A stretch of 21,532 nt of DNA, taken from Ectocarpus siliculosus (lineage: Eukaryota > Sar > Phaeophyceae > Ectocarpales > Ectocarpaceae). Positions 4,181-21,532 of the stretch are shown in pieces; position 1 is the stretch's first letter; each line of letters opens with the position of its first letter. Location: the NCBI GenBank assembly GCA_000310025.1, contig FN648915.1:1-21532 (forward strand), in the 5' to 3' direction. The notes beneath the pieces were generated by a model that made no database searches, was not told where the DNA came from, and was given only the letters and a program-made list of their open reading frames with translations. Made by a program: the position numbers and the translations under genes.

Positions 4181-4396
4181 TCGCAGTAGCTTCATCCTCT
4201 GATATAGGACAGAACAGTGTTTGCCCCTTCGGATAGTCCCTTGCCGGAAGAACCCCCCGTACTCTCCGTAGAATGCGGGTGTCGAAGCCCAGAGACGTTG
4301 ACCTTTGCCCGGGCGTGGTATTCTACAACTTCATTGGCGCCCCTTGGAGCATGCACCAAGCATTCCAAATCATAAAGCATGCCTTGCGGTCACATT

Positions 4397-4523
<127 letters not shown>

Positions 4524-4529
4524 TTAAGT

Positions 4530-5270: not shown

Positions 5271-5274
5271 CACC

Positions 5275-5420
5275 GTGAAGATACCGCCCTGGTGGGCGTA
5301 TTGGAAAACCGCCGCCTTACCCCTGGTTTCGTTATACCGCCTCCGCCAAAGTCCTTACCGCCGAAAAACGAAACACCCCCTTCGGCAGAAACAGTTACCG
5401 CTGAATGGTACTATCGCCCT
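5275..5420 (+). repeat. TTACCGCC motif cluster, right copy
   Basis: This holds ATACCGCC, AACCGCCGCC, TATACCGCCTCCGCC, CTTACCGCCGAAAAACG (5354-5370) and GTTACCGCTG. The 14-base word TTACCGCCGAAAAA is shared with 4094 in the left cluster, same orientation, about 1.26 kb away. The two clusters may be fragments of one repeat family. Confidence 0.5.
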
Positions 5421-5429
5421 GCCCATGTC

Positions 5430-6095
5430 CACCTGAAAACCCGTGATCGACCTGTAACCGTTGGAAATCCCGACATGTGGATGACACCATGCAGGAGCTG
5501 CTTGCATGTGACATCTTGAAATGGGGCTGGGCTTTCGGGCGCTGCGCTCGCAGTCCCAACACAACACGTGTGCGGCGCATCTGGTTTCCACGCCTGTCAC
5601 CTTCCCCTGCTGTACCGTACTCACCGTCACAATCCCAACCTCCCGATTTCCAGCTCTACAAACCGTAGCTCAAATCTTGGACGACCCCCGCTTCAGGATG
5701 TTTTGGCTACGCAGCGGCCATTACCGCAGTTGATTGTGATAGGCTGGTTTGGGTCCAGATTTTTCTAAGCTTTTAACGCCCGGCGACAGCCTTTGGTATC
5801 AATGCCCAAGGAGAAGGCCTGAGAGTATCACTAACTTCGCCCGGCTCTGAACACTGCCTTCTACTGATGTGTTCCTAGCGCAACAAAAAAACACTCTAAC
5901 CCCACTGAGTGTTATACAAGTTTTGACAGAGGGAGGTACTGGATGGAGAGATCGGAGCGGTCTTAAGCGAACACAACAACACAAACAACAACAACGACTA
6001 AAGATCCTGTAGATGAGAGGTCATTTTCGATGTTTAGTCTTGGACGTATACACGAACCCATTCACCGTCCTTATCGCCGCTTTGTCTGCCGTTTC
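5430..6095. other. No recognisable feature
   Basis: Short frames only. A small ACAACAACA-rich stretch lies near 5971-5995. No gene or RNA is supported. Confidence 0.5.
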
Positions 6096-6099
6096 CTGC

Positions 6100-6250
6100 C
6101 TTTCTCTGGCCGCGCGTTACTTCGACACGTTTCGTCTGCTGTAGTATTGCTGGTGCCCCTCTTTGTCTGGCCGTGCGTTGCTTTGTTTCGTCTGTTGTAC
6201 ATAGTATTGCTCTCGCCTCTCTCTGTCTAGCGGTGCGCTGCTCCCTTGCT
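6100..6250. repeat. 60-bp minisatellite, about 2.5 copies
   Basis: The words CTGGCCGCGCGTT (6106), CTGGCCGTGCGTT (6167) and CTAGCGGTGCGCT (6227) mark copies 61 and 60 bp apart. Copies share internal TTTCGTCTG(C/T)TGTA and AGTATTGCT. On the minus strand an 82-residue frame (6034-6282) crosses it with a 20-residue periodicity (QRTARQRE, then QRTARQRG). It has no recognisable domain and is treated as a repeat translation. Confidence 0.7.
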
Positions 6251-6259
6251 ACGGCAACG

Positions 6260-7715
6260 TTCACACACGGTTTTGAGCTCAACGGGCTAGGGTATGACTA
6301 GCGCACGACTGTTGTTTCTAGCGATACCATGCGGGAGTCTGGGTTTGCCCACGGGCAAACTTGCCATAACCAAATGTGAAATCGAAAACAAAAGGAGGAC
6401 TAATAAAGCGGGAATGTGGATATTTTGGTACTGTTATAGTGGAAACATTAGACACTAGAGTGCAAGCTATTATGGGTCACGGCCGAAACCATCGCGGTAC
6501 ACAGGATATCAGGCATTCTGTGGTGGTCAGCGTATCCACTTGCCCAGACCCACAACAAGATGGGTCTGCTGTTGCCCGAAGTCGTGAGTCAGCTGAACCC
6601 TGTTGCAGCGGGACGTGTCTCTCTGGAGCGGCATAGAGACGCGTCGTCTCATGGTCGCTGACTCGCTTTCGTGGGTAGAAATTCACTCCCCTGTAGCGAG
6701 ATATTGCTTGGTGCTCAAATATACCGTCAATACCGCCAGTCAAGCTAGTTTGAGGCCAAAATGGAGACAACCCCTGTAGTAGATGTGTTGCAAGACCGGA
6801 GAAACGTCGCCACGACAGAAAATTTCGCCTATGGGGTCAGTTCACCGACGGTGCATTCAGGTTTGGCGAGGAAGAGGAGCTCATTGTGTTACATGCCCTA
6901 TTGTCGCGAATACCAGCGATGGCGGAGGGAACCCGTTCGGGGGAAAATTGTATGCATCTGACGGATCTATCACCTTCTCGATATTTTCCATTCTTCTCCT
7001 CCCCTCAGCTCGACTCTTGGTTGCCTGGACACTCGAAGTTCTCCGCACGCCGTTACGTCAGCATGCGCCTCTTCTACGGAGCGCTGGGTCTTTCATTCGT
7101 CCGAGGCACCGGTGAGAATTCCCACGAAGGCAGTTAACCGAAAACAAAGACAGCAATTGAGGGAGGACTTGGTCGATTTTGATTCTGATGCAGATCTCTT
7201 ACCCTTATCCCGCCCGCCGACAATCTGCACGTTGATGCAGGTAAAAAGATCCAGGCGGTGTTGTCGCCGTAGCGATGTATGCCCCTCCCTTTGGGAGGTC
7301 GTCATTGTATCGCCTCTTCCGCGACGCTGAAGGGCGCACGACTCCTTATAGCCTAGCCTGTACCTCATCGAGCGGAAAGACGCCGGTTGAATCCTGTCGT
7401 CACGTGATTTTTTGTTGTTTTCGATGACTTGTTGTGGCATGTTGTGGCTTGTTGTGTGCAATGAAGCAAGACATGAGGCACGCCGTGGGTTTGTTTTCCT
7501 AAGTGTATTGTGCGGACAAGGCTTTCCGCGAAAACTTGGAAATCTCAAATACCGCTCTCTTCACCGTCTAGCTCCATTGTTTCACATGCATTACTCCGCG
7601 GCAGGTGCGATCAAATCCTGCTTGAACCCTAGGACTGCGTGACCCCTCGGATCAACTCATGTGTGAGCCCCCTTACCCGGACGGATTTGTATTTGGAAGT
7701 TTATCTCGGCCTGTG
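6260..7715. other. No recognisable feature
   Basis: About 1.45 kb of mid-GC sequence with frames of up to about 150 codons on the minus strand (7093-7548) and 110 on the plus (6783-7115). None shows a domain, a repeat, a signal peptide or paired splice sites that I can recognise, and they overlap each other in opposite directions. Confidence 0.45.
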
Positions 7716-7720
7716 AGGTC

Positions 7721-7800
7721 TGTACGTTTTCGGGTACTGAAAGTGTTTTAGAACTCAGCGGACGTATTTTTTAGGGTATTGGAAGTGTCACAGATGTCGT
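7721..7800 (+). repeat. Diverged 40-bp tandem duplication
   Basis: GTACGTTTTCGGGTACTG followed by AAAGTGTTTTAGA (7721 on) matches GACGTATTTTTTAGGGTATTG followed by GAAGTGTCACAGA (7761 on). This gives two copies at a 40-bp offset with many substitutions. Confidence 0.4.
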
Positions 7801-7809
7801 CTGTAACAT

Positions 7810-8235
7810 TCTGTACGAGCGACACCCGGACAAATACACCCGGTACACCTCTGTGGGTATCCTAAATCAAGCACCCTTGGAAACATACTATTGTGATGCA
7901 CGGTATTCTTCCTCGACCCCGAGTTGCAGGCGTTTTTTTCCAGAAGGCGCTCGGGTGTTAGTTGGTCCGGAACTCAAGTCCAGACGTTGTCGATGGTATA
8001 TCCCGGCTGAATTACATTTGTGTCTGGACCCCACAATCCCTCTCTATCAGCCACGGGGTATGGTACGCAAAAGCTGAGAGGCATATGCCATCATAACATC
8101 TTGTGACGTAGGCAGGGCGCGCGGGGCCCCTGGAAAGCTAGTCTTGGTTTTCGTATGTGACGACGGGATGGCGGGTGTTGGCGTGCTCGGTGATATTTTC
8201 TGTATTTTCTCGCAACCTATGCATATCCAGGGCTT
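7810..8235. other. No recognisable feature
   Basis: Only short chance frames are present, for example 7853-8077. No domain, repeat or RNA was recognised. Confidence 0.45.
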
Positions 8236-8237
8236 AG

Positions 8238-8918
8238 TCAGGCGAAACTGACCGCAAGACTTCGCCCCACGTCCTCCTTGCTGTTCGCCATAATCGTGGC
8301 GAAGACTCGGCGCTGATCGAATGCCTCCCGGTGTTGTGCCGCTTCTTCTCCTTGTTCTTCGGGGTGCACCGCCTCGTTGTCATGGCCATCGTCGAACGTA
8401 GGGCCCCAGTTATGATCGTCATCGCCGCTCCTCCGATCCTTGCCCGAGTAGGCATCGCTGCTGCCATCCTCCTGCTCATCGCCGCTACGCCTACCCTTGC
8501 CTATGTAGGCATCACTGTCGGCATCCTCCGTGGTCGTCGCTGTTACTCCTAATATTTTCCGAATAGTCATCACTGTCGTCGTTATGCCCCTTGATGGTGC
8601 CATTCCCGCTTCCCCTCCCCTCTCCACGCTCTTCTGCGGCAGACTGCCGTCGATCCCACCCTCGTTGGTGGCAGTATCACTGCCATCCACTGTACCCCCC
8701 CCGGATTCTTGCCCCTGGCCACCTTTTTCTCCACCCGGTTTGGTGGTTGTTGGGGTACCGGCATCGTTCTGGCATGTGCTCCGTCTGTGTCGCCGAGACC
8801 AGCAAGAACCGTTTGCATCCAACTTTTTGAACCGATAACCACATCGTACGAGTCGGTACAAAGCCAAGACGTCCGGTGTCCCACGTCCCGGTGTGAAACC
8901 GATTTCTGACTCCGACAC
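8238..8918 (-). pseudogene. Charged repeat-containing reading frame, probably a decayed exon
   Basis: A minus-strand open frame of 226 codons that I do not recognise. The C-terminal third is hydrophilic and acidic, with two in-frame 19-residue repeats (SDAYIGKGRRSGD and SDAYSGKDRRSGD) followed by a Glu/Asp/Gln-rich tail ending MANSKEDVGRSLAVSFA. A third upstream copy of the same DNA repeat exists but is in another frame, where it reads DSDDYSENIRSNSDDHG. It is 58 bp long instead of 57. This argues for an older coding sequence hit by a one-base indel. The first ~20 codons fall inside the satellite array that starts near 8866, so the ATG at 8918 is unlikely to be the real start. It could instead be a purely non-coding repeat that happens to be open. 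Function is unknown. Confidence 0.35.
8406..8577 (-). repeat. 57-bp tandem repeat, three copies
   Basis: In minus-strand order the copies are 8577-8520 (58 bp), 8519-8463 (57 bp) and 8462-8406 (57 bp). Each begins with GACAGTGATG(A/C)C or AGCAGCGATGCC, then TA(T/C) plus a Gly-Lys-like stretch, AGG.GTAGCGGCGATGA and an acidic run. Two copies are a multiple of three in length and one is not. Confidence 0.75.
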
Positions 8919-11550
8919 GCATATCTCCCTGGTTTGAGCGAATCGCAGGCATCATGTCCCAGGGCGTCGTTTCCGAATACATGTTTCACGGTCAGTTTCG
9001 AGGAGGGACCTCGACGAGGGAACCGATGTGCATGTGAAACTGAACTCTACGTTTTCAGTAGCACGACACGGATGTCGGGATGAACTTCTTGAAAACGTTC
9101 TGTGGCATCCCAACGGATATTTTACGATGCCGTAGAAGAAATATTGCTCCATGGAAACGCTGTCTTGACGAAATTCAATCATTCATTCTTGCCGACGACA
9201 TTCATAGCCAGCTTTGGGTGTTGCAACCGAACATGCTACTGTAGTTCACTGTCAAAACCTTACTTGATATTTCACTCCTTCATTCTTGTCCATGGCATTC
9301 ATATCGAGGGTTATCTGTGCCAGAGGTCATGGTGTGAAACCGAGTCCCGACTCCTACACGCAAAACTCCCTCGGTTGATCGAATAGGAGACATGTCATCG
9401 CAGGATGTCATTGCCCAAAAACCATTACAATGTTAGCTTTGAGAAGTGTTATTCCTCGAGCGAACCCATATGCATCCGAAACAAGACCCTACTTTCTCGG
9501 TAGGACGGCAGGTTGGTCGAATTGGGAGCGAACGTTCGTCAAAATCTGTGACATCTCAAAGGCAACGGTACCATATCGTTCAAGAATCACAGCTCCACGG
9601 CAACATAGGCTTGACCAAATCCACTCATGCATCTTCTTCGACGACATTCATAGGCAGGGCTTTCGGTGTCCCAGGTTGGGGTGTGAAACCGAGCCCCGAC
9701 TTCTTGAAATGATGATGTTTCACTTTCGTAATATCCTCCGTGATAATTTCACTCCCTCCTTCTTGTCCATGACATTCACAACGCGGGGCTTGGCTGTGCC
9801 CGAAGTCCCGATGCCACACGGAGTTCCGTGTCCGACATACATATCTCCCTGGTTTGAGCCAAACAAAGGGATCATATCGCAGAGCGTCGTTGCCAAATAC
9901 ATGTTTCAAGGTCAGCTTCAAGGAGACTTCCTCGTCGAGGGACCCGATATGAATCTGAAACAGAACTCTACGTTTTCAGTAGCACGACACGGGGGTCGAT
10001 GTCAGAATGAACGTGTTGCCAAAATTCTGCTACATACTAAAGAAAACAGTACCATGACATTGAAGAGATGGAGCTCCACGAAAACACGGTCTTGAAGAAA
10101 TTCACTTGTTCATTCTTGCCGATGACTTCATAGGCGGTCTTCAGTGTCCCAAGTTGCAGTGTGAAACCGGATCCGCACTCCGTGCAAATATCTCTTTCAC
10201 GTTCGAGACCCCTACGTGAGAATTTCATTCCTTCGATTTTATCCATGGCGTTCATATCGCGGGTTATCGGTGCCAGACGTCATCGGTGCCAGACGTCCTC
10301 GATGAAACGAAGTCCGACTCCGACACGCACATCTCCTTAGTTGGATCGAATCGAAGACAGAAATATCTTCGTAGGATGTCATTGCCCAATACAATATTCA
10401 CTGTCAGCTTCAAAAAGGGCCACTCGTCGACAGAACCAATTTGCAACTGAAACAAACTCTGCCTTATCGGTAGCACGACAGGGTTTTCGAATTGGGAGTG
10501 GAAGGTGGTCAAAATCTATGGCATCCCACTGAAACTGGTACCATGCCGTTGAACAAATATCTGCACATATATAGGGTCTTGAAGAAGTTCGCTCATTCGT
10601 TGTCTTCGACGACATTCATAGGCAGGGATTCCGGTGGCCCAGGTTAGGGTGTGAAACCGAGCCCCGAATTCTTCAACTATGATGTTTCGCTGTCGGAGCC
10701 CCCTGTGTGAAAGTTTTTCTCCCTAATTCTTGTCCATCAAACTCATAGCCAGGGTTTGTCTGCCAGAGGTCCGGGTGAAACCAAGTCCCGACTTCGACAC
10801 GCATATCTCCCTTGTTTGATCGGGTCGAAGACAGAAATATCTTTTCGGAAAGTCTTGCCCAGTTCCAATTCGCTGTGAGGTTAGAGAATGGTTAGTCGTC
10901 GAGAGAACCAAGATGCGCCTGAATCTATACTCTGCTTTTCCGGTAGACGACATGGGAAGTTCGTCAAAATATGTGAAATCCCGAAGAATATTGTACCTAA
11001 TCGTTGAGCAAATGTCCTCCGCGCAAAAACAGTCTGGACGAAGTTCACTCGTGCATTCTGTTGACGACATTCATAGGCAGGGTTTTCGGTGTCCATGTTG
11101 GGGTGTGAAATCGAGTCCCGACTTCTTCAAACATTGGTGCTTCACTGTCGTTACCCTGACCGTGAGAATTTCACTCCCTCCTTCTTTTCCATGACATTCA
11201 TACTGAGAGCAGGCTGTGCCCGAAGTCCCGATGTCACACCGAGCTCCGACTTCGACATGCATTTCTCCCTTGTTTGATCGAATCAATGACATAACATCGC
11301 AGGGTGTCATTGTCCGAAACATGTTTTACTGTCAGCTTCGAGGAGGCTTCCTCGTCGAGGGAACCGATGAGCGTTTGGAGTGAAAACTCTGCCTTTTAGT
11401 ACTTCAGTGGCACGACATTCCTTCGAATATCTGGATGTGAAAATACTGCCGAACCAACACGATTATCCAAGGTAAGGTAGTATATTTTTGGTGAAATATT
11501 TGGGCTACATGGAAACGGACCCGATCAATTTCATTCCTTCCTTTCATAAA
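8866..11550 (+). repeat. Satellite-like tandem array, about 470-bp units
   Basis: Between five and six diverged units. The anchor GTCAGCTTC(A/G)AGGAG or a variant starts at 8991, 9432, 9911, 10403, 10874 and 11331, giving steps of 441, 479, 492, 471 and 457 bp. Each unit holds two related sub-blocks. Type 1 reads GACATTCATAGGCAGGG, then TTTCGGTGTCC and GTGTGAAACCGAGCCCCGAC, near 9680, 10160, 10650 and 11102. Type 2 reads CATTCATAT, then a GAAACCGAGTCCCGACT-like word and CGACACGCATATCTCCCT, near 8890, 9331, 9808, 10293, 10775 and 11235. The longest frame across it (9430-10095, 221 codons) has no recognisable domain and is not maintained from unit to unit, so I treat the array as non-coding. 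Its left edge overlaps the charged minus-strand frame. Confidence 0.85.
10266..10297 (+). repeat. Perfect 16-bp tandem duplication inside one array unit
   Basis: ATCGGTGCCAGACGTC is repeated head to tail at 10266-10281 and 10282-10297. Other units have a single copy of the equivalent sequence, so this is a local, recent slippage event. Confidence 0.85.
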
Positions 11551-11559
11551 ATTCGCAGC

Positions 11560-12060
11560 AGATTGGGCGGTATTCGGAGAAATAGCCTACACCAACTGCT
11601 ACAGGCGAGAAAATCATGATCGGTCAACCCACCGTGCGCTCCCGCCCAATCGCATTTCTCCGAAACTTATGCACCGTCCGAAGCAGTTCCCGACCCCCAC
11701 GCTGTTGCTGGCGTTCCTCCGCTGCGGCGTTTCCGTCGCTGATGCCCTCCGGCGCGCTCGGCGAAGGATATTTGACTTTCCACCCCGCTTCCCACGCTTT
11801 TGCCGTGGACTGAGGGTGGTGGGCAAGTGAGGCTACCCCCTTGCGGCCCGTACGCCAATCTCCTGCAGGAATTCCACCCGTGTCCGCCATTTTTGAAGAT
11901 GTACCACCCACCGTCTGCAGTCCACCTTCTCCGGCCATCTTGCCGACCCCACTGCATCCCTTTCGTAATCCCATATCTTCTCCGTATTGTTCTCCCTGTA
12001 TTTCCCCCATCCACCTGTGCCTTCGTTCTCGGCCGTCGTAAGGCTGTAGAAAGGGAGCAT
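11560..12060. other. Spacer between arrays, with unassigned open frames
   Basis: The sequence becomes more GC-rich here. A minus-strand frame (11624-12010, 128 codons) is hydrophilic, with a Glu/Arg/Gln-rich stretch (AAEERQQQRGG). Its overlapping rival frames are equally open. I recognise no domain and see no paired splice sites, so no gene is called. Confidence 0.4.
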
Positions 12061-12660
12061 GTTAGAGTGGCAACCGCATGTTGGCTTCGGTCGAATACCG
12101 GCTTGCGCGATAGCTGTTGGCCGTGGAAACCCAGCAACCTCGTTTTTGGCCACGTAAAATTCGTTCTCGGAATATTTTACTCGGTGTCGTGCATAAGTCA
12201 TATTTACGACAATTGTTTTCGGCCGAAGGACGGCTTGTGTGACAGTGGGGGGCCTTGGGAACACAGTGCAAATGGGTTCGTGCCTATTGGAGATGTTTTC
12301 GGAACTTTTCGTGCGGTGTCGTACATAAGACACCGGCGAGGTGGTGCTGCGGCCACATTCTTGGGCGTATCTCGGGAACCACATACTCGGCGAAATGACG
12401 GCTTGTATGACAGCTGGGGGCCATGGAAACACAGTTCAATTGATTTCATGCCCGTTGGAGGTGTTTTCGGAAAGTTTCGCGGTGTGTCAGAAAATAAGCA
12501 TTAATACGGCACCGCGGAGGTGGTGCCGTGACATCATGTTGGGCCATATCTCGACAGCCACCGGTCACTATGGGACCAACGAGGGCTTACGCGACAGCTG
12601 AGAGCCGTGTCGAAAATACTACGGTGTCGTAAATAGCGATGGGTTTGTGGCCTACTTTGG
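12060..12660 (+). repeat. Second tandem array, 130-185-bp units
   Basis: Four diverged units are marked by CGGCTTG(C/T)G(C/T)GA(T/C)AG followed by GGCC(A/G)TGGAAAC, beginning at 12099, 12231, 12399 and 12583 (steps 132, 168 and 184 bp). Units also share TTGGAG(A/G)TGTTTTCGGAA and GGTGTCGTACATAAG-like tails. The third and fourth units carry an extra CACCG.(C/G)GAGGTGGTGC segment. The first two steps are multiples of three, so the plus frame 11800-12504 repeats the peptide theme GL.DS.GPW.HS and VFG.FR.VS. The minus frame is also open, which argues against clear coding. Confidence 0.7.
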
Positions 12661-12679
12661 GGCTTAGAGCACACTTCAC

Positions 12680-13270
12680 CCAAGCCATGTAAGGGGGACA
12701 CGTCGTGTGCTACTAGGAACGACGTTTCACGAATAGTTTGAGCGGATTGGGTGCTCTCTTGATGTGCTACGCACCCGTTTCGTGTGATCATGGCTTGGGG
12801 CTTCGCAAGACGGGGACTCTAGCTCGCGCATGGCGTACCCGGGCAACTACAGGGCTCCTCGGTGCCCTAATGCTTGATATTGGAATTTGACTTCCCCCCC
12901 CGTGAATGACTCGAATAAGAATTTGGGTGCTTGGTGCCGACAAATTTGTGTTTCGTGCACCCTACAGTAGGTGCCTCGTCAGAGTCCTTATTTGGGTGAT
13001 TCCGAAGCTTTTCACGATTGTTTTCGCAAATTTTGTGATTGTGGGCAAGTGGCGCAATGTTGTCTTGTCGACTGTGTAGGCGTAGCTTGCTAACCATGGA
13101 GCACCTCCTTTGTCTTTTGTCCCCGCGTTCTTGTCGTTGAAGGGAAATCTGTCGATTTTTAGGTGGCGGGGGCCTACATTAACCTTGCAACATACGATTG
13201 GATGCCTGAATTGACGCCAGCACCTGTTTTTCATGTACTTCATTGTTCGCCGTCCTCGATGCCGTTCCAG
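12680..13270. other. No recognisable exon; probable intergenic or intron sequence
   Basis: No domain-bearing frame is visible. The last 60 bases before 13271 are rich in T and C and end in CCGTTCCAG, consistent with the polypyrimidine tract and acceptor of the following LRR exon. Confidence 0.45.
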
Positions 13271-13342
13271 GAACCTCTACTACTGCGGCATAACATCCGT
13301 GGAGGCCGACGCCTTCCTGGGCCTCGAGGCTTTCGTTCATCT
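13271..13342 (+). CDS. Single-LRR exon E1 (72 bp)
   Basis: An exon of exactly 72 bp between acceptor TTCCAG and donor GTAAGG. Read with one leading base, 23 codons and two trailing bases (phase 2 on both sides), it gives a 24-residue leucine-rich repeat starting NLYYCGITSVEA and ending DAFLGLEAFVHL. The last Leu codon is split CT|G by the donor. Consensus positions L2, I7, V10, F15, G17, L18 and L24 are filled; position 21 is Phe. LRR exons of this kind stack into curved solenoids that bind proteins. One LRR per symmetric exon matches published descriptions of ROCO LRR-GTPases in Ectocarpus. No flanking exon within 900 bp was found, so it may be part of a long-intron gene or an orphan exon. 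Frame and boundaries are seen; membership of a ROCO gene is inferred. Confidence 0.75.
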
Positions 13343-14095
13343 GTAAGGCCCCTTCTTTGTATATACATACATGAATATCCTCTCTTTGAATCAGCGCTCA
13401 CACCTCACAAACCCCTACCTGGTAGCTGCTACAGTTTTGGTACCGGTAAGTGTGTGTCATGCGTCCACACCTCTGCTCGCGGAGAAATCCGCTCGGAATG
13501 GGATAAACACGCAGGTATCGGGGTATCACCTGGTATTTGTACGTACCTTCTTGGCAGAATTGAAGCGGCCTGGGTGCAGCACCAATTGAGTATTGCTTGT
13601 GTTCCCTCCTCGGTGTTGCTTTTGATCAAAGGCTTGACAGGAAATTGGTGTATTCTGTCTTAAGCTGTCAATCTTTCTCCACGTGCGGACCCCTTTCGTC
13701 GGTGCTCTTTACCACCGTCTGCGCTGCGATGGGAAGTTCCAACAGCATGGCCTTGGCGCGTAGGTCATCCTCAGTAGAACAGATGAGGCCCGTCGTGAGG
13801 ACACAGCGTTGCGTGTGATGGGCGAACGGAGCTCTTTGCTCGAAAGGCCTACAGCAGTCTGTACAATTCTCATTCTCGCAAGCAAGCTCTGCATCATGTC
13901 TTGGTGGTCTGTGGATCGGATGTGGACCTACCTTTCAACTGTCCATATGCATCATAGTCCCCAGGTGCTTTCATCAGGCTTTCGCATTGAGGCCCTTCGT
14001 CCATGCTTTGTTGCTATCTTAAAATAGCCTCCCTATCCCTTTCGTTGCTCCATGTCCGCCGCCCCTCGTTTTACCTCTCCCTCTTTCTCCTGCCG
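13343..14095. other. Probable intron or intergenic sequence
   Basis: No splice-bounded LRR or other domain was found. A stretch at 13641-13712 after TTGACAG is weakly LRR-like but lacks a donor, so it was not called. Confidence 0.4.
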
Positions 14096-14119
14096 GTCTC
14101 TCTCTGTTTCTCTCCCTCC

Positions 14120-14178
<59 letters not shown>
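14096..14178. repeat. (CT)n microsatellite
   Basis: About 80 bp of CT repeat with a few TTTC and CCC interruptions, bounded on the right by ACCCCCCC. It lies 65 bp before LRR pseudo-exon E2 and, on the plus strand, could act as an oversized polypyrimidine tract. Confidence 0.95.
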
Positions 14179-14182
<4 letters not shown>

Positions 14183-14242
14183 CCCCTATAGATGATGCTC
14201 ACCTTGGGGAATCCTAACACATCGACCTCAACTCACATACAG

Positions 14243-14318
14243 GGGTATAGGCCTTGAGAGTTCGTTGGGACATTTACCAGCCGGAGCGTTCAACGGTCGT
14301 TCGGCCCTACATAAAGCT
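14243..14318 (+). pseudogene. LRR exon E2, damaged (76 bp)
   Basis: Between CATACAG and GTGAGA lies a 76-bp segment encoding LRR sequence: LGHLPAGAFNG then SALHK. It matches exons E4 and E6 closely over the stretch TTGGGACAT, CCAGCCGG and TTCAACGG. Four extra bases relative to the 72-bp standard break it. About three lie near the 5' end and one sits before the final CT, so the last Leu codon is out of frame. The Leu expected at position 18 is Arg (CGT). I read it as a decayed member of the E4/E6 subfamily. It could still be spliced, but it would shift the frame. Confidence 0.5.
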
Positions 14319-14319
14319 G

Positions 14320-14824
14320 TGAGAGTCTATTGTAGCCATGGCCGCCACCCTTCCACTTGGGTCGTTGCAGACATGCAAAGGTGCTCTGTCGATCCGCCCA
14401 CATGACTAGAGATGAGCGCCCCCATATTGCGGTGCCGAAATCCGAAACGTTGAGGGTATTGTGATCTCGTTGGCTCAACCGTCTACGCGATCGACACATA
14501 CGTACCGTTGAACCTACATGCTGGACGCCAATCTCTCCAAACCAGCGCTACCAAGTGAGAGAAGAGAAAATTTGCGGGATGGTACGGATGGTTGTTGGAA
14601 GATTGACTCCAAACGCTCTGCGAGAATCGCAAGGTTTAGATGGGCTCTACAGTCGCCAGTCCAGGCGATACATTCGGGATTCGCGGCGGGCAATAGCCTT
14701 CGCTTCTCCCACGGGGACATTTCGGGTGCTGTGAAAGTCTGATACCTTCGGGTGTGTACAGGCGATTTACACATAACGCACTGAGGAACGCTCGCAGTCA
14801 TCTACATTATAGTATTTTTTAGTG
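14320..14824. other. No recognisable exon
   Basis: Short opposing frames only. The words CTGGACGCCAATCTCTCC near 14520 resemble the start of an LRR, but no acceptor, F15 or donor follows, so none is called. Confidence 0.4.
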
Positions 14825-15268
14825 AAATATTTCATGGAAGTCCATGGAGTTCCTTCCATGGACATACTTTCATCACGGAAGTCTATGAAACATTTCATGG
14901 ACGTTCAAGAAATAATCCAGTGACGCCAACTTGGTTGATAAATGCTGACAATGAGCCTTGGCAGTGTTCGACATTAATTTCCATGAAATGTGTGCATGGG
15001 CTTTTCATTGGACTTCCAAGAAAACTTTTACTTGTTTCCACGGAGCTCCATGGGCTTCCAAGAATCTCTTGATGGAACTCCTTTCACTTCCATGAAACTT
15101 TTCATGGAAGTCCATGGACGTCCATGGAACTCTTCATGAAATATTTCATGGAAGTCCAAGGAGTTCCATGAAATCCTATGAAATGTTTCATGAAAGTCCA
15201 TGGAGTTTCATGAAAAGTTCCATGGAGCTCCATGGACTTCCATAGAAATCGTCATGGAATTTCATGAA
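14825..15268. repeat. CATG palindrome array, block A
   Basis: About 21 CATG tetramers in some 440 bp, against the one or two expected by chance. In the well-preserved right part they start at 15091, 15103, 15113, 15123, 15135, 15147, 15167, 15189, 15199, 15209, 15221, 15231, 15253 and 15263. One-base variants (CAAG 15157, TATG 15177, CATA 15241) fill the gaps, so every step is 10 or 12 bp. The 6-base spacers are GAAGTC, GACGTC, GAGTTC and GAGCTC; the 8-base spacers are AAACTTTT, AAATATTT and AAATGTTT. Both strands read alike. Frames through it give His/Met/Trp/Phe-rich peptides of no meaning. The left part (14833-15060) is more eroded. Confidence 0.9.
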
Positions 15269-15789
15269 AAATATAAAAAAAAAAATGAATAAAACTACCA
15301 TTATAATAATTGAGATGAATCACACGGACGACGGGCTCAGGGTGCATCTGCTCCAAGCCGAAAGAAAAGTGAGTGGTGGACGCCATCCTCCGCCCATCAG
15401 CAGAGCCGCGGGAGAAGTCAAACGGCCGGGCACAACAACCTCGCCGACGGCCTCCACCGCCAGCTCGTCGCGTTCAGCAATGAATGGGTGTCCCATCACA
15501 GCCAGCCCCGATCTGGCGAACCGTCGAATAATGGAGGGGCGGAAGAAGGCGAAAGGGAAAAACATTTCCAACCGATACCTAGCCATTGCCGAGTGAGGTA
15601 GGTGAGGTGCGTTCCGAAACCCTTGTCCAAGGGAGTGTCGTGAACACAAATTCAGGACACTCAGTTAGTTATAGACTACATAGTCGAAAATCGGGGTAAT
15701 TTTGTTCCATTTTGGGGGGGGCGGGGACATATCCCCATGTATCCTCGGGTTTTCCGCCGACGCGCCGGCGCTTCGGCGTCCCGCCCTCG
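15269..15789. other. Unrelated segment between CATG blocks, with a minus-strand frame
   Basis: The segment begins with a 17-base A-rich run and ends in GC-rich DNA (GACGCGCCGGCGCTTCGGCG) next to block B. It contains no CATG phasing. A minus-strand frame from ATG 15649 to 15320 encodes 109 residues with an amphipathic, basic N-terminus (FFPFAFFRPSIIRRFARSGL), and a plus-strand frame of similar length overlaps it. I recognise neither. It may be an insertion that split one CATG array, but I found no target-site duplication or inverted ends. Confidence 0.4.
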
Positions 15790-16347
15790 CATGGAACATT
15801 TCGTGGAGGCCCATGGGCTTTCATGAAACATTTCATGAATGTTCATGGATGTTCATGAAATGTTTCATGGACGTCCATGACCTTTCATGAAATATTTCAT
15901 GAAAATATTTCATGAAATTTCATGGAAGACCATTGGATGTTCAGGACATATTTCATGAAAGGCCATGGACGTCCATGAAACGTCCATGAAACATTACATG
16001 GACGTTCATGGGCTATCATGAAATATTTCATGACCCCCATGGGGTCTCCATGATTTTTTTTTTCATGAACGTTCATGGGCGTCCATTTCATGAACGTTCA
16101 CGGGCGTTCAGGAAAGCATGTCATGAACGTCCATGAAATTGTTCCATGAAAAGTTTCATGACAAGGAGTGAAATTATTTCATGGAAAGTTTCATGACAAA
16201 AATGTCATGGACATCCATGGAACTTTTCACGGAATGCCGTGAAAACTTTCATGGAATTCCATGGACTTCCATGGAAGGCCATGGAAGTTTCATGGAAGTC
16301 CATGGAATTCCATGGAAATCCATGGTCTTTCATGAAACTTTTCATGG
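15790..16347. repeat. CATG palindrome array, block B
   Basis: More than 40 CATG tetramers in about 560 bp, with the same 10/12-bp grammar as block A. For example, starts lie at 15790, 15812, 15822, 15834, 15844, 15854, 15866, 15876, 15886, 15898, 15911 and 15921, with the variant CGTG at 15802 filling the first gap. Spacers are again short palindromes or near-palindromes (GACGTC, AAATATTT, GAATTC). Runs of CCATGG, TTCCATGGAA and TTTCATGAAA make many overlapping small hairpins. It ends at CTTTTCATGGAAAAG, after which ordinary sequence resumes. Confidence 0.9.
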
Positions 16348-16359
16348 AAAAGTACGAAA

Positions 16360-17082
16360 GTGTACAAGCCCCAACGCTCGTGGCAGTCTCGCCATTTCCC
16401 ACGACAAGAGTTCCGTGTTGTCTTGTCCGTGTAAAAGGCTCTCGCTTTCGAGGGACGACCGATATACGCATGGCCGACTATCCCAAAATTGTGGAAACGG
16501 CGGGGGAAGCATCGCGGTCTACGTTAAGGGGCGTAAGGAAATGGTTGTACTGCCGCACGCCTTCTCCATGTGCACAGACCCTTGTGCTTCATCACATCAG
16601 AACCCTCTCGCGCTTATCCAACGAGCTGTGCTCCACATGCAGTTGGGGCGCTCGTTTTGGGCCGTTATGTGCCCAGAATATTCACCTATCCTTTACAGAA
16701 CACCGGCGCTATTCAGAACATAAGGGGTATCTAGGGTTAGTATTGGAGTGAACACTCGTGTCCAGAGATTTGGCCGGCCCAATACCATGCACCGGCACTA
16801 TTCAACCGACACTACCTCTATTGTGCTTGTTTCAGTAGCCTTCGCAATGTATTCCTACTTTGCGAGCATTTTGGAAAATTATATATTCATACAATCGGGG
16901 AAGTTGAGTTTGGGCCAGGGTTAGGGTTGGGATAGGGTCTGCATACCCCCCTCCCTCTTGAAACTCGTCATAAACTTCAATTCTCGCGAAAGAGGGGTAC
17001 ACTTGCTCAGGGCCAACAGCTTCCCCGCATGACCGCTTCCAGCCTTCCAGTACCTCTCTCCGCGCCCCCACGCCCGTACCCG
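16360..17082. other. Probable intron or intergenic sequence
   Basis: No convincing exon. Small features are a duplicated CACCGGC(G/A)CTATTCA (16701 and 16790) and the telomere-like run AGGGTTAGGGTTGGG near 16918. A weak LRR-like segment at 16601-16668 was considered and not called. Confidence 0.4.
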
Positions 17083-17154
17083 ATACCTTTCCTACGCTGG
17101 TGTTGCATCCCTAGCAGCTGGCACGTTCCCAGGCCTCGATTCCCTCGACGAGCT
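17083..17154 (+). CDS. Single-LRR exon E3 with defective acceptor
   Basis: The 72 bp before donor GTAAGT encode a clean LRR in the family phase: YLSYAGVASLAA then GTFPGLDSLDEL, with the final Leu split CT|G. L2, V7, L10, F15, G17, L18, L21 and L24 are all present. The two bases before the expected exon start are CG (in GTACCCG) where the other exons have AG, so the acceptor looks mutated. The nearest upstream AG (17050) would give 104 bp and break the phase. The repeat itself is well conserved, so loss of the acceptor may be recent, or a different acceptor may be used. Confidence 0.6.
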
Positions 17155-17658
17155 GTAAGTGAATTGTTGTTTGACTCGATCGATTGCCGTCGGCTGAGGG
17201 GAATGAATCACAAAGAATCAGTCTCTCTACTGCGGCAATGATGTGGAGGTAGCCTGCTGGAAATTTATATGGCAAGTACGGAATGCTTTAGGTATACGTA
17301 GGACACCTCTCAATGCCAGTTGATAGCAACAGTTTTACACGACATTCGATCCATTCCTCCCACGGGCTGACCTCTATAGCTCCATCTCCTGCAACTTAAA
17401 GGCGGAGTTGCTTTGCCTTGTCTACGGGGAGCCTCCCAGAAACTTGCGCATGCCGTTGTCCGCGAAACCAACGAAAACTCCGCATGGCACAGGCTGACCA
17501 TAGCGCTGACGTACAGAAAGATGCTTTGGCAAATCTTCTCTGAATCGTGGTCGCGAAGGTGCCAAACACGATTGTGGTGTAACCCCGTCACGATTGTCAG
17601 CGCGATCGTTGGGAACTCTCACCCCTCACCGACTGTGCAACTTGTTGTGCCCGCGAAG
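17155..17658 (+). other. Probable intron between LRR exons E3 and E4
   Basis: Starts with donor GTAAGT and ends with CCCGCGAAG before E4. No domain-bearing frame was recognised inside these 504 bp. The intron assignment rests on the flanking exons. Confidence 0.45.
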
Positions 17659-17730
17659 GAGAATATTCGCCGGCGCCCTGGGACATGTTCCAGCCGGGTC
17701 GGTCAACGGCTTGGCTGCGCTTCTGACGTT
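17659..17730 (+). CDS. Single-LRR exon E4 (72 bp)
   Basis: An exact 72-bp segment between acceptor GCGAAG and donor GTGAGT, with the same phase-2 symmetry as E1 and E8. It encodes RIFAGALGHVPA then GSVNGLAALLTL, with the last Leu codon split TT|G. I2, L7, V10, G17, L18, L21 and L24 fit the LRR consensus; position 15, normally Phe, is Val. Its central sequence (CTGGGACAT, CCAGCCGGG, CAACGGCTTGGC) is near-identical to E2 and close to E6, so the three form a subfamily. The upstream pyrimidine tract is modest. The next exon downstream starts after a 235-bp intron. Probably one repeat of a multi-exon LRR protein. Confidence 0.65.
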
Positions 17731-17965
17731 GTGAGTTGACGTCTTTCATGCTCTCCGTTGTGTTCTGATAAAACAACGGATTTGGTCACTACACGTGCGC
17801 AGGCGAGCCAACCGTTGTCAAGGTGCAACTTTGGTAGGTGCGCCTTTTCGAATATTGTTCAAGTCGGCGACCATGCCCAGGGAGAGATGCACCAACTAGA
17901 AGATGAGAATCCCAAGGAAAACTTGTGCTTCCCGCCTCATCTGCCGCCCTTGGTTGCCACGACAG

Positions 17966-18036
17966 GGCCCTCAACCAGGCTGGAATCACATCTCCGCTGT
18001 CGGATGCTTTCGAGACCTCGGGAGTCTCAAGAAACT
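17966..18036 (+). pseudogene. LRR exon E5, one base short (71 bp)
   Basis: Between CGACAG and donor GTGAGT lie 71 bp. In the family phase the first half reads ALNQAGITSPLSDAF, a good LRR start (L2, I7, D13-A14-F15). The second half fits only after a shift of one base, where it reads RDLGSLKKL with L18, L21 and L24 in place. A one-base deletion just after the F15 codon (about 18012) explains both. If spliced, it would frameshift everything downstream. The exon length of 71 bp where 72 is the rule is seen directly; the deletion is inferred. Confidence 0.6.
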
Positions 18037-18359
18037 GTGAGTTGAAACAAGGTCTCCATCGATTGCTGTTGTTTTGAGAATCCCTCGAGATGAAAAGTCC
18101 CTGCGTACAGTACAAAACCCTCGATGCCTACACGGGCGTGGTGTCTTACGTGAAATAGCGTCTGCCGTGCTCTCGTGCACCTTCGGGAGCGAGTTTTGGT
18201 AGCCGGTTTCCGTCAAGCGTGCTCACACGAAAATTGGCGCAGCTTGCGTCTCAGAATTTCTCAACCACGACTTCGGTGCCCACCATCTCTGGAATCAATC
18301 GTTACACGACCCCTTTATTGTTGCTAGTGTTCTGACACTAACCCTACTCCTACCGCTAG
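18037..18359 (+). other. Probable intron between E5 and E6
   Basis: Begins GTGAGT and ends TACCGCTAG. It contains no frame with a recognisable domain. Confidence 0.45.
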
Positions 18360-18430
18360 GGATATTGTTGGAATTCGCTGGGCGACGTACCAGCTGGGGC
18401 GTTCAACGGACTGGCGGCTCTCCAAACCTT
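18360..18430 (+). pseudogene. LRR exon E6, one base short (71 bp)
   Basis: 71 bp lie between acceptor CGCTAG and donor GTGAGT. Read back from the donor in the family phase, it encodes WNSLGDVPAGAFNGLAALQT plus the split Leu (TT|G), a strong LRR with N5, L7, V10, F15, G17, L18, L21 and L24. With the only available AG, the reading phase at the 5' end is off by one, which implies loss of a base in the first four codons. It belongs with E2 and E4 by sequence. Either it is a pseudo-exon or the intron phase was changed by the deletion; in the first case it adds a frameshift to any transcript. Confidence 0.6.
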
Positions 18431-18800
18431 GTGAGTGACCATGCAAGGCCTACCTGCATGTCGTGTAGCTCTAGCGCTAGCTATCCGTATCCCTTAGCCG
18501 TTTCACCTATGAGCAGCGGCAATCCTGAAATGAGGGTGTGTATCACATGGCAATCCGTTGATTGGTGCTTGATTGAAGACTGGCGAAAACGTTCGCTTCC
18601 GATATTGTACTCGTTTCCACCCTTGCGAAGTATTTGGTTCTACGCCCGAAGGCGTCCAAAGCAAAAATATCTTTTCCCCCCGGCCTGCCCGCCTCCCTAC
18701 TGGGTTGGGTCGAGGTCCGTAAGCGGGAGTAGGCCTCGAAATACCACGCATCCAACACGGATATTCAGTCCCTACTACTGTTCCGAAGGGAATCCTGACT
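18431..18800. other. Sequence between E6 and the retrotransposon
   Basis: Begins with donor GTGAGT. No further exon or repeat was recognised. The 5' edge of the retrotransposon is not sharply defined and could lie in this stretch. Confidence 0.4.
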
Positions 18801-19090
18801 TTGGTGGCCGGGAACTACGGCTGTCGTGAGACCGGGGTAGCTCCTGACCTTACCAACTCGGGTAGCTGCAACGTGGGACTGATCCAGATGCCCCGGCTTG
18901 GATACCGGGGCCATGCAGCGGCAGAGAGCACGGTGAATACTGTGGGGGTAAGCACCAGAGAGGGGAAACGAACGAGTCCAGAGCTGGAGGGCCGCACCGC
19001 TCCGGGACGAGAAGACAACTCTGTGGGACAAATAGCAGGCACCGGAGTAACTCTTACGTTAGCCCGAGAGCCCGCAACAAAATTGAAGAA

Positions 19091-19374
19091 ATGCAACAAA
19101 AGAGGGCGCGAAGGAGGAAAAGGAGGGGACGGGCGAAGCGAAGGCTGACTAAGAGAGCAGCACGCGCCGCCCGAGGCAGACAGCAGGGTCGACGTCTTGG
19201 GGTAGCAAACTGGAATGCGTGGACCCTGGCTAAAAACGGGGAAATGTGTACGGGGGAACCTACCGTATCTTGCACGAGGCAAGGAAGCAAAACATATCGG
19301 TGATAGGCATGGCGGAGACACGGAGGAAAGGGCACACGGAATTCGCAGCGACGGGTTTCGGAGTGTTCTGTTTT
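19091..19374 (+). pseudogene. LINE ORF2 N-terminus: endonuclease fragment
   Basis: A very basic leader (an Arg/Lys/Ala-rich run from ATG 19091) leads into RRLGVANWNAWTL, the opening beta-strand and Asn motif of APE-type endonucleases. After about 19238 the homologous frame moves by one, continuing as HEARKQNISVIGMAETRR and then KGHTEFAATGFGVF, which carries the conserved Glu-bearing ET(R/H) motif. The domain then stops after about 75 residues. A full domain is about 220-240 residues, so the catalytic Asp/His motifs are missing. Activity is ruled out by the truncation and the frameshift. Confidence 0.75.
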
Positions 19375-19387
19375 GACTCTAGGCGAC

Positions 19388-20179
19388 CTCTCCCGGGAGA
19401 TCAATTACCGGAGCAGAACAACGTGGGCGTGCGTCAGGAGATATGATCGGGAGCTCTTCGACAGGCCGAGAAAACCGTTCCGACTCGAGACTCGCCTGCT
19501 CCAGGCCGAGGCGATGAAGGCACTACTATACGGCCGCATGACGTGGGCCCCACGTCGCGAACACTACCGGCTGTTGCCGTCGATATATCACCGGCTTCTC
19601 TTGCGAGTTATCGGTTACCAACGCAACAAGGGCACCTGCCGGCAGCTTTCCTACGCCCAGACCCTGAAGAGGGTAGGTGCCAGAGCGTGGAAGCCATTGT
19701 TTCGGGGACGGCGCCCGCTGTTGGTGGGTGTAACCAGACAGACACGCGTTGATGCTTGGCGAACTGGTGGGAGGGGAGGGCCCAGGCAGGGGGAAACCGG
19801 AGCAAAACTGGCAGATATACCTGAAGGACGACCTCAAATTGTTCGAGGCAGAACAAGGATCTACGGACACCGAGACATGTGTCTTCGGAGTCACAACTTA
19901 GATGGAAGCAGCGAAGATGGAGCGGGGTGTACCGTGGCATACGGGTTCACTGCAGGGAGCTGAGAGGTTCATGGCCTCCTGACACAAGAAGGAAGAGGAG
20001 GCTAGTCAACAACGAGCGCTCAAATGAAACAACAAGCCCGGCAACAGCACGGACAGGTCAACACCCAATGGGACGGGAGGGGTGCAGCAGACGGACGAGA
20101 CGGCGAGGGAAGACAGAAAACGAGAAGAGGCGGACCGAGTGGCGCGACATTGCTGTGCCGGATTGAACCCCTTGATTGA
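19388..20179 (+). pseudogene. LINE ORF2 C-terminal region, frameshifted
   Basis: Starts abruptly at REINYRSRTTWACVRRYD and continues ELFDRP, then RLETRLLQAEAMKALLYG and RLLLRVIGYQ, the typical post-RT region of RTE/Jockey-like LINEs in which the template-derived chain passes a Trp/Arg-rich thumb. At about 19676 the homologous frame shifts (CQSVEAIV). From 19761 it is in a third frame (ELVGGEGPGRGKPEQNWQIY, then LKDDLKLFEAEQGSTDTET) up to a stop near 19900. Further fragments (LRWKQRRW, YRGIR and a Lys/Arg/Glu-rich tail ending near 20179) lie in yet other frames. Several indels and stops make it non-functional. Confidence 0.7.
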
Positions 20180-20409
20180 TGGACTAACCCCGCCCCTGTC
20201 ACTACACCATTGCATCAACCCCCCAGCAGTAGTTACATGCCTTTGCTGTCTCGAGCGACGCGTTTTGTATTGGCTTGTGTTGTTTTGTTTGTGTGCCGCT
20301 ACGGTAGTGGTTCTGGCGTCTGTCATCGTGTCTCTGTTTCTCCCTCTTCCTTCTGCTGTTTTTGTTGTTGTTTTTTGCTTGTTAAATATTGTTTCAGTCT
20401 ATTGTTACC

Positions 20410-20860
20410 TTGCATAGAGGGTAGAGGCGAACGGAGGGTCCCAGACTATCTGTCGTTGATTTCTATTGGCTTGCGGACCCTTCGGGTCCATCTAATTTTC
20501 GTACCTTTTCGGGGTAACTTCGCTTGTGACCACGGGAATCGTCCGCGTCAAGTGCTTGCCTAGTACGGACAGAAGAAGGTACTGAGTAGAGAGAACGGGA
20601 CGGTTTTTAATACGAAGTCGGAAACAGTAACAGCAGGTGATTTGTGATGATTGCGATGTGGAAGGGGTTTGCCCTTAAGAAAGTGCTGTTTCGAAAAAAA
20701 ACTGTTTCAGCTCGTGGCGGTGTGCTTGCGGTAGAGGACCCTCAGTTATGCGGTATGCGGAGTGTCGGGAAGTCCTACTTAGTGGGGGCACAGGCTGTGT
20801 CGTGCGTTGCATACTTGAGTACTCCAGACTCGGGTCACGTCACACAGAACAGGACTAGGA
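20410..20860. other. No recognisable exon
   Basis: Mixed sequence downstream of the LINE tail. Short frames without domains. It may be intron sequence of an LRR gene interrupted by the LINE. Confidence 0.4.
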
Positions 20861-20861
20861 C

Positions 20862-20938
20862 CTAACTCAACTCCAATCAACTTAGTGAGGCAGTGCATGT
20901 CCCTGCCCCGAACAAACAAGGCTTTCACTCAACGAATT
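20862..20938 (+). pseudogene. LRR exon remnant E7
   Basis: The start reads LNSNQLSE (L2, N5, L7), the textbook opening of a 24-residue LRR. After a 9-base interruption it continues VPAPNKQGF then HSTN, which lines up with V10-P11-A12 and G17 but lacks F15, L18 and L21. The codon before L2 is a stop (TAA where TAC is expected), no AG sits at the expected acceptor position, and the donor would be the poor GTGTGT. A decayed copy is the best reading; chance similarity is possible. Confidence 0.35.
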
Positions 20939-21009
20939 GGTGTGTAAATCTCCCGGCCAGCGACGTCCAGCGTCACAGAATCCGTTTCTCTTCCTCGTCC
21001 ATACGACAG

Positions 21010-21081
21010 GAGCTTAGGGGGCGCTGGTGTCACGACGCTGGAGGCTGGTACGTTTTCAGGGCTCCAGGCCCTCGTCGAACT
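21010..21081 (+). CDS. Single-LRR exon E8 (72 bp)
   Basis: The cleanest LRR exon in the window. A pyrimidine-rich tract (TTTCTCTTCCTCGTCC) and ACGACAG acceptor precede 72 bp, followed by donor GTGAGT. It encodes SLGGAGVTTLEA then GTFSGLQALVEL, with one leading base and the final Leu split CT|G. Every structural position is filled (L2, V7, L10, F15, G17, L18, L21, L24). The length, phase and splice signals equal those of E1 and E4, so these exons could be joined in any order without breaking the frame. The gene it belongs to probably extends past the right edge. Confidence 0.8.
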
Positions 21082-21381
21082 GTGAGTAGGCTGACGTCTC
21101 GATTCGTTTTTGTCGGTCTCAAGACTGCTCGACTTGCCCGTCGCTGCGTGTCGCTGCACATAGGCATCTGGGACAGGTGGTTGTCATTGGAGGCGGTTTA
21201 TCTGGCCTGGCAGCAAGATGGTAGACTTGACGAGCTTCGTGTAGAGGACGATGCAAGCTGTGAAGATAGATACTTCGTGACCCATAACGGAGGCCCCGCT
21301 GGAGTCGAGCAGGTGATTTTTCGGTACGAACCACCGGACGACGCTTTGCCCTGCCCGTGCCGGTCTCCACCCCGAACAGAG
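21082..21381 (+). other. Probable intron between E8 and E9
   Basis: 300 bp starting GTGAGT. Inside it, 21177-21236 after GGGACAG reads WLSLEAVYLAW then GRLDEL, faintly LRR-like but 12 bases short and without a donor, so it is not called. Confidence 0.4.
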
Positions 21382-21453
21382 GTTTGGGTGGCCAGGACGC
21401 GATTCTTACCCTGCCAGCTGTAAAAAATTCGTCTCTCGGGGCTCTTGAATTTT
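21382..21453 (+). pseudogene. LRR exon remnant E9 (72 bp, shifted phase)
   Basis: Exactly 72 bp between AACAGAG and donor GTGAGT. The family phase gives no LRR and hits a stop. One base over, the sequence reads LGGQDAILTLPAV, then SSLGALEF. This keeps I7, L10, P11-A12, L18 and L21 but replaces the G-x-F core (13-15) by VKN within an A-run. Length and splice sites match the series, the phase does not, so I take it as a decaying exon with compensating indels. It may instead be a divergent phase-1 exon. Confidence 0.4.
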
Positions 21454-21532
21454 GTGAGTGGCTGTCTGCGTTGAGATTCCGGCGCAAACGAGTCTCAGGA
21501 TCGACGGAACGTTGGTTGCCGACGAAGATTTT

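Follow-up and report, generated by a model that had tools for sequence, protein, structure and literature searches.

A probable relic of a phase-2 leucine-rich repeat exon array in Ectocarpus siliculosus, separate from the ROCO exons

Is the cluster of 72-nt exons in this window, which is the entire 21,532-base contig C349 of Ectocarpus siliculosus, a working leucine-rich repeat (LRR) gene, a reservoir of exons for the ROCO (LRR-Roc-COR) genes or a remnant? We favor the last answer, with a probability of roughly 0.8, and consider that the window carries a dead, decayed LRR exon array that belongs to a widespread class separate from the ROCO exons.

Anatomy of the exon relics

The window contains eight LRR exon relics, all on the plus strand, of which three are intact and five are damaged by a lost acceptor, a length of 71 or 76 nt or a frame slip. 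The features are given below with their state in the matching copies on contigs C30 and C158 and with the scores of an independent HMM, built from exons of other loci.

13271..13342, +, LRR exon 1, intact, 72 nt, phase 2/2; identical to C30 and C158 within the exon
14243..14318, +, LRR exon relic 2, 76 nt, register broken near the donor; same length in C30 and C158
14794..16375, strand unassigned, dispersed foldback-like repeat, in the intron that separates relics 2 and 3
17083..17154, +, LRR exon relic 3, 72 nt, CG in place of the acceptor AG; same lesion in C30; 6.1 bits
17659..17730, +, LRR exon 4, 72 nt, phase 2/2, splice sites intact; conserved Phe position occupied by Val (by Phe in C30)
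17966..18036, +, LRR exon relic 5, 71 nt with a frame slip inside the exon; weakest of the eight, together with relic 8
18360..18430, +, LRR exon relic 6, 71 nt, 5' side one base short; same length in C30; 8.8 bits
18675..20617, strand unassigned, two adjoining dispersed-repeat pieces (18675-19370 and 19382-20617), in the intron that separates relics 6 and 7; resembling a LINE on visual inspection only
21010..21081, +, LRR exon 7, intact, 72 nt, phase 2/2; zero differences from C30 within the exon; 6.5 bits
21382..21453, +, LRR exon relic 8, phase slip; conserved Phe position occupied by Asn (by Phe in C30)

Each intact exon spans 72 nt between an AG acceptor and a GTAAG or GTGAG donor and consists of one leading base, 23 codons and a trailing CT or TT, encoding a single 24-residue LRR with a split Leu codon (standard phase 2). 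The initial annotation had described 13271, 17659 and 21010 as symmetric exons of precisely this kind and 17083 as a fourth that fits except for its acceptor, and both descriptions are confirmed by the exon anatomy, with CG preceding 17083-17154 in the window as well as in the C30 copy. The complete set of class features (one leading base, split Leu and typical LRR in a 72-nt exon) is found in three exons, and 17083 has all but the acceptor. The relics at 14243-14318, 17966-18036, 18360-18430 and 21382-21453 are additional to the exons listed in that annotation, the range of which ends at 21453. Frame coherence is lost along the array, which includes two 71-nt exons, a 76-nt exon, a phase slip and the lost acceptor. 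Pfam searches of 15 window ORFs, including the tested ORFs of the repeat at 18675..20617, gave no match, and Rfam returned nothing in the window at gathering scores.

Judging from this anatomy, splicing in the ancestor would have joined eight or more symmetric phase-2 exons, all 72 nt long and each supplying one 24-residue "typical" LRR (LxLxxNxLTxLPxGxFxGLxxLxxL) of a solenoid; gain or loss of an exon of this kind could leave the frame undamaged. The array then decayed through acceptor loss, small changes of exon length and the entry of repeats into its introns, all of which are visible in the sequence.

Decay and the near-identical copy

The window is a near-identical copy of sequence on contig C30, with which it is approximately 98% collinear (95.8-99.2% by segment), and probably represents either the second allele or a recent duplication. 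Exon lengths and the lost acceptor are common to the two copies, and their exons are free of indels relative to each other. Substitutions between the copies amount to 11/578 within exons and 83/7579 outside them (p = 0.10 in a small test, not significant); exon divergence is thus not below that of the flanks and gives no sign of constraint. Six of the nine classified codon changes are non-synonymous, with one substitution (in 17966) unclassified, and two changes fall on the conserved Phe position, in 17659 and 21382. Shared lesions, exons that have diverged no less than their flanks and a 6/9 share of residue-altering changes together argue for a relic rather than a working gene. Furthermore, the intact fraction is 3/8 in the window versus 19/20 among the class exons sampled elsewhere (p = 0.003), in a comparison set that was picked by similarity to LRR queries and leans to good exons. 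Against a relic stand the three intact exons and the unchanged state of exons 1 and 7 relative to C30.

Could the locus still be live, either as an LRR-only gene that joins its three intact exons by skipping the others or as a reservoir that supplies exons by recombination? At three exons the splice sites are clean and the phases fit one another, so that in-frame joining by skipping is possible in principle, and the near-identical duplicates of exons seen in other arrays suggest turnover in the class. However, five of the eight exons are broken, two of the between-copy changes strike the conserved Phe position, the introns carry repeats about 1.6 and 1.9 kb long, and the C30 copy contains a copia element. 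When all eight exons were used as DNA queries, matches came from C349, C30 and C158 only, with no donor or recipient copy elsewhere. A live gene or reservoir is therefore unlikely, and the orphan reservoir suggested by the initial annotation is left unsupported. Its other suggestion, the middle of a long gene, is also unlikely: the readable flanks within 120 kb of C30 contain no further LRR exon, although 16,160 of the 120,000 bases (13.5%) are masked and might conceal an N- or C-terminal part.

Relation to the ROCO exons

Does the decayed array descend from the ROCO family? In Teng 2024 (PMC11378527), brown algal ROCO LRR exons are 72 bp long, encode one LRR each, have symmetric phases and form tandem arrays with many suspected pseudogenes, all of which recalls the window with its five broken exons of eight. 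The same paper assigns the 23 ROCO residues to "nucleotides 3 to 71". Scoring of the 100 best candidates yielded at least 54 Roc matches in the genome. Among 17 Roc-linked loci that were scanned, LRRs were found only at two, L009 and L011, so that the register given here for ROCO comes from three exons together with Teng 2024. All three are plant-type and 72 nt long, with a Gly codon interrupted after the first base (standard phase 1); one of them has an unusual donor, gtcggt. Thus, ROCO exons read from nt 3 to 71, split Gly at these loci and lie beside Roc, whereas the typical-type window exons read from nt 2 to 70, split Leu and have no Roc, and the phase difference means that the two sets are not exchangeable in frame.

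A member or fragment of a ROCO gene, or an exon reservoir for such genes, would share the 72-nt exon length and the single LRR per exon, and LRR-only 72-bp exon sequences of Saccharina japonica were termed a possible reservoir in Teng 2024 (PMC11378527). Nevertheless, register and LRR type differ at both LRR-Roc loci, none of the 54 Roc matches listed from the 100 scored candidates lies on C349, C30 or C158, and the window exons have no DNA relatives outside these three contigs. This origin is accordingly very unlikely. The initial annotation was right that no GTPase or other partner domain is visible here, but its proposed kinship with ROCO genes is not supported.

The 6 kb upstream of five Roc matches contained neither window-class exons nor plant-type LRR exons. 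The COR model PF16095 has a single match in the whole genome (C17) and none in the ORF after Roc at L009; the model thus seems to miss COR in the E. siliculosus genome. An ephrin-receptor-like domain was rejected as a partner, as none of its 14 matches lies near the 12 clusters of the window's class; three of these matches, on C82, adjoin LRR matches of a longer-frame kind. An LRR_6 search returned four loci and no exon of the window's class.

The exon class and its meaning

The class of exons to which the decayed array belongs gave 71 matches in the genome, with at least 12 hand-grouped clusters of three or more each, and no cluster lies within 500 kb of any listed Roc match. Clusters taken as intact include those at C16:6.769-6.775 Mb, C15:5.219-5.225 Mb and C55:157-160 kb. 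Of 20 exons sampled in pieces of about 200 nt, 19 are exactly 72 nt long and in phase 2. Near-identical exon duplicates occur in other arrays and suggest continuing exon turnover in the class.

An LRR-plus-splice score, compared with 60 order-2 Markov shuffles on the plus strand only, was 8-9 for 13271, 17659, 21010 and 18360, and no shuffle candidate exceeded 7; the minus strand of the real window reached 4 at most, and 17966 scored 5, a level also attained by shuffles. The independent HMM, trained on 23 exons from other loci only and set against 30 shuffled windows on both strands, detected 18360, 21010 and 17083 well above the null best of 0.8 bits; 13271 and 17659 were not reported, and 14274 in relic 2 received only -1.0 bit, inside the null. 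With the three intact window exons included, an HMM gave six of the eight no less than 8.1 bits, against a null best of 1.9; three of the six are its own training exons, and relic 2 scored 8.1. Both HMMs left 17966 and 21382 undetected, and the assignment of these two relies on splice sites, on position and on visual recognition of an LRR pattern. LRRs are short and these two relics do not rise above the null, but chance or low-complexity mimicry is contradicted for at least six of the eight by the shuffle and HMM nulls, and with all relics on one strand in the register of 19/20 exons elsewhere it is highly improbable.

What do such arrays encode? A spliced chain, which is not letter for letter the product of the window, matches Pfam LRR_8 at 1.5e-18, and its best PDB matches are the IGF acid-labile subunit, LRRC15 and LGR4/5, followed by TLR and VLR. 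Most of these nearest relatives of known structure are extracellular proteins with typical LRRs, and on that basis we infer that the intact arrays most likely code for an ectodomain used in recognition or adhesion. The ectodomain exons of animal glycoprotein hormone receptors and LGRs also hold one LRR each in phase 2, but these genes differ in their 7TM partner, and the likeness may be convergent.

Tetrahymena possesses thousands of LRR genes with tandem arrays, retroelements in introns and exons of fixed length that have standard phase 2 at both ends, as described in PMC6564038; the ciliate exons measure 90 bp and encode 30 residues, unlike the 72 nt and 24 residues of the window. Closer to Ectocarpus, 15 LRR-only 72-bp exon sequences are reported from S. 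japonica in Teng 2024 (PMC11378527). Like the window, they have no Roc, and plausibly they belong to the same class, with the difference that the window copy is decayed. In the literature screened by title and abstract opening, mostly outside subscription papers, brown algal LRR exon arrays appeared only in Teng 2024 and works cited there.

We lean, by a small measure, toward a model in which brown algae maintain two parallel one-LRR-per-exon systems between which exons cannot be exchanged, one being the published phase-1 plant-type ROCO set and the other a phase-2 typical-LRR set of at least 12 clusters away from Roc, the intact arrays of which would grow by tandem exon duplication and build a recognition ectodomain. 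The window would be a fossil of the second system. Taken alone it is a pseudogene, and its importance lies in the phase result: a split Gly versus a split Leu provides a simple sequence test by which 72-bp LRR exons fall into two pools that are not interchangeable. If this result holds, ROCO genes would be unable to draw exons from an LRR-only array of the window's kind, and brown algae would have a second candidate receptor family that merits a separate inventory.

LRR exon relics and their repeat context

The window contains eight remains of leucine-rich repeat (LRR) exons:

13271-13342, + strand, LRR exon relic 1 (72 nt, AG/GT, score 8)
14243-14318, + strand, LRR exon relic 2 (76 nt)
17083-17154, + strand, LRR exon relic 3 (72 nt, acceptor AG changed to CG)
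17659-17730, + strand, LRR exon relic 4 (72 nt, AG/GT, score 9)
17966-18036, + strand, LRR exon relic 5 (71 nt, internal slip)
18360-18430, + strand, LRR exon relic 6 (71 nt, score 9)
21010-21081, + strand, LRR exon relic 7 (72 nt, AG/GT, score 9)
21382-21453, + strand, LRR exon relic 8 (phase slip)

The three segments that the initial annotation singled out (13271, 17659 and 21010) prove to be real exons: each spans 72 nt between an AG acceptor and a GTAAG or GTGAG donor. In each, a single 5' base precedes 23 codons, and CT or TT remains at the 3' end. As the initial annotation had also described, a Leu codon is thereby split in phase 2 of the standard convention, and 17083-17154 fits except for its acceptor, which reads CG where AG is expected. 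Five further relics accompany the three exons on the same strand.

The top plus-strand score in 60 order-2 Markov shuffles did not exceed 7, and the best value of the same score on the window minus strand was 4. An independent protein HMM built from 23 exons at other loci gave 8.8, 6.5 and 6.1 bits for 18360, 21010 and 17083, respectively, whereas 30 shuffled windows reached at most 0.8; 6/8 relics were recovered when the three intact window exons were added to the model. The relics at 17966 and 21382 have no support of their own from the shuffle score or the HMMs.

Pairwise identity among the eight exons is 46-69%, and their start-to-start spacings are, in order, 972, 2840, 576, 307, 394, 2650 and 372 nt. 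The two longest spacings hold dispersed repeats (~14794-16375 and ~18675-20617). The first is packed with CATGGAAGTCC-like inverted units and has longer copies on many contigs at roughly 76-88% identity. The second comprises two pieces adjoining at 19371-19381, with LINE-like residues by eye and no Pfam match. The stretch 8220-12608 carries a diverged repeat family, its units several hundred nt from one another, that recurs on contigs C1, C24, C219, C241, C20, C11 and others (~69-79%). Positions 1-585 are a dispersed repeat whose copies, ~80% identical, occur on many contigs, among them one right at the beginning of C17, and 4395-4538 is a (TTG)n tract of ~47 units.

Decay in the C30 and C158 copies

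The window makes up all of contig C349. Its sequence runs collinear with the minus strand of C30:3886772-3860306, at segment identities of 95.8-99.2%; for positions 636-1018, 15442-15820 and 16235-16320, the listed C30 pieces (150 nt or longer, >85%) include no match. Contig C158 aligns to window 4080-16269 at segment identities of 88-99%, and relics 1 and 2 are present on it. The C30 copy is longer by ~5.5 kb between these two relics, at a (CT)n tract, and the extra stretch holds a transposable element:

C30:3867396-3872960 (L034, L035), copia-type element between relics 1 and 2, with Pfam matches to RVT_2 (reverse transcriptase, 6.9e-49) and rve (integrase, 9.2e-11); absent from the window copy (window 14097-14178)

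Because the C30 copy has the same exon lengths and the same lost acceptor, with no exon indel between the copies, the damage predates their split. Window and C30 differ at 11/578 aligned exon bases and at 83/7579 bases in the other sequence of 12900-21532 (Fisher p = 0.10); for C158, the differences are 2/148 and 44/3204. Six of the nine classified codon changes between window and C30, a tally that leaves out the change in 17966, alter the residue and three are silent, and two changed codons (17702; 21426-21427) hit the conserved Phe of the repeat. Small as these numbers are, the divergence is as expected of a relic free of constraint.

Across C30 3,800,001-3,920,000 (120 kb) and C158 (39.9 kb), scanned in 10-kb pieces containing 16,160/120,000 and 200 N bases, respectively, the only LRR exons picked up by the score or the HMMs are copies of those in the window; four score-7 candidates are not LRR-like. 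The earlier statement that no GTPase or other partner domain is visible holds: the genome profile search placed no Roc (the GTPase domain of ROCO proteins) on C349, C30 or C158 among the best candidates scored, and the 15 window ORFs tested have no Pfam match.

Phase-2 LRR exons and the ROCO set

Twenty LRR exons at other loci, chosen by profile or protein similarity rather than length, were read as 201-221-nt pieces. Nineteen can be read as 72 nt free of stops, with a single leading base and Leu as the split codon, and the exception (C16:6727820) reads best at 84 nt; the sample includes near-copies and thus represents fewer than twenty independent cases. An exon-peptide query (one peptide written twice) gave 71 matches, some weak (E up to 1.15), from which 12 clusters of at least three single-exon matches within 10 kb were grouped by hand on C16 (2), C15 (3), C21 (2), C55, C12, C47, C33 and C4. 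Nine clusters share a contig with a listed Roc match, at least 534 kb away; the contigs of the other three have none among those listed. Since pieces inside clusters are up to 93.0% (C16) and 88.7% (C15) identical with the intron included, values depressed by end offsets, recent tandem duplication of exon units is suggested there. The DNA search with the eight window exons listed 18 matches (E up to 10), all on C349 (8), C30 (8) and C158 (2).

The initial annotation had tied the window to ROCO exon shuffling. At two putative ROCO loci on C483 and C461 (L009, L011), a Roc exon (1.5e-16 and 8.5e-15, respectively) is preceded on its own strand by LRR exons. The three LRR exons seen there are 72 nt long and consist of 2 bases, 23 codons and 1 base, so that the break falls behind the first base of a Gly codon (standard phase 1); they encode plant-type repeats (about IPxxLxxLxxLxxLxLxxNxLxG), whereas the window exons split Leu in phase 2. 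According to section 11 of Teng 2024 (PMC11378527), nucleotides 3 to 71 of the LRR exons in the ROCO genes of four brown algae encode 23 residues, and the sites under positive selection (14, 16, 18 and 19) lie on the concave face. Both numbers agree with the C483/C461 register, in which the selected sites land on variable strand positions, and neither agrees with that of the window. The same source names the ROCO phase 'phase 2'; by our reading of its numbers, it is phase 1 in the standard convention. Swapping exons whose symmetric phases differ would break the frame, and the window is therefore neither a ROCO piece nor a usable ROCO reservoir.

Ephrin-receptor-like repeats adjoin LRR_8 matches at C82:60191-65949, possibly a receptor gene of another LRR kind. 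EsV-1-7 repeats, a family described in a review as expanded in brown algae (PMC7457493), have at least 150 matches (150/150 candidates scored, of 880). With these repeats and with Roc exons next to LRR exons, the genome is probably that of a brown alga.

Relatives and likely role

Spliced together, the relics give a chain of 195 residues (with one X and one altered letter), which matches Pfam LRR_8 at 1.5e-18. In the PDB, 177 sequences match with E no higher than 0.01; the best 60 of these are headed by the IGF acid-labile subunit, LRRC15, LGR4 and LGR5, followed by Toll-like and variable lymphocyte receptors. Close known kinds are the 72-bp LRR arrays of brown algae that lack Roc (section 15 of Teng 2024, PMC11378527), the 90-bp phase-2 LRR arrays of Tetrahymena (PMC6564038) and animal LGR exons. 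Nothing in this analysis shows an immune role for the class. The window belongs, in decayed form, to a class of LRR exons in phase 2; the original observation was right and the ROCO reading was not. The best PDB relatives are for the most part extracellular proteins with typical LRRs that serve in recognition or as scaffolds, and from this we infer that an intact array of the class would encode such an ectodomain.
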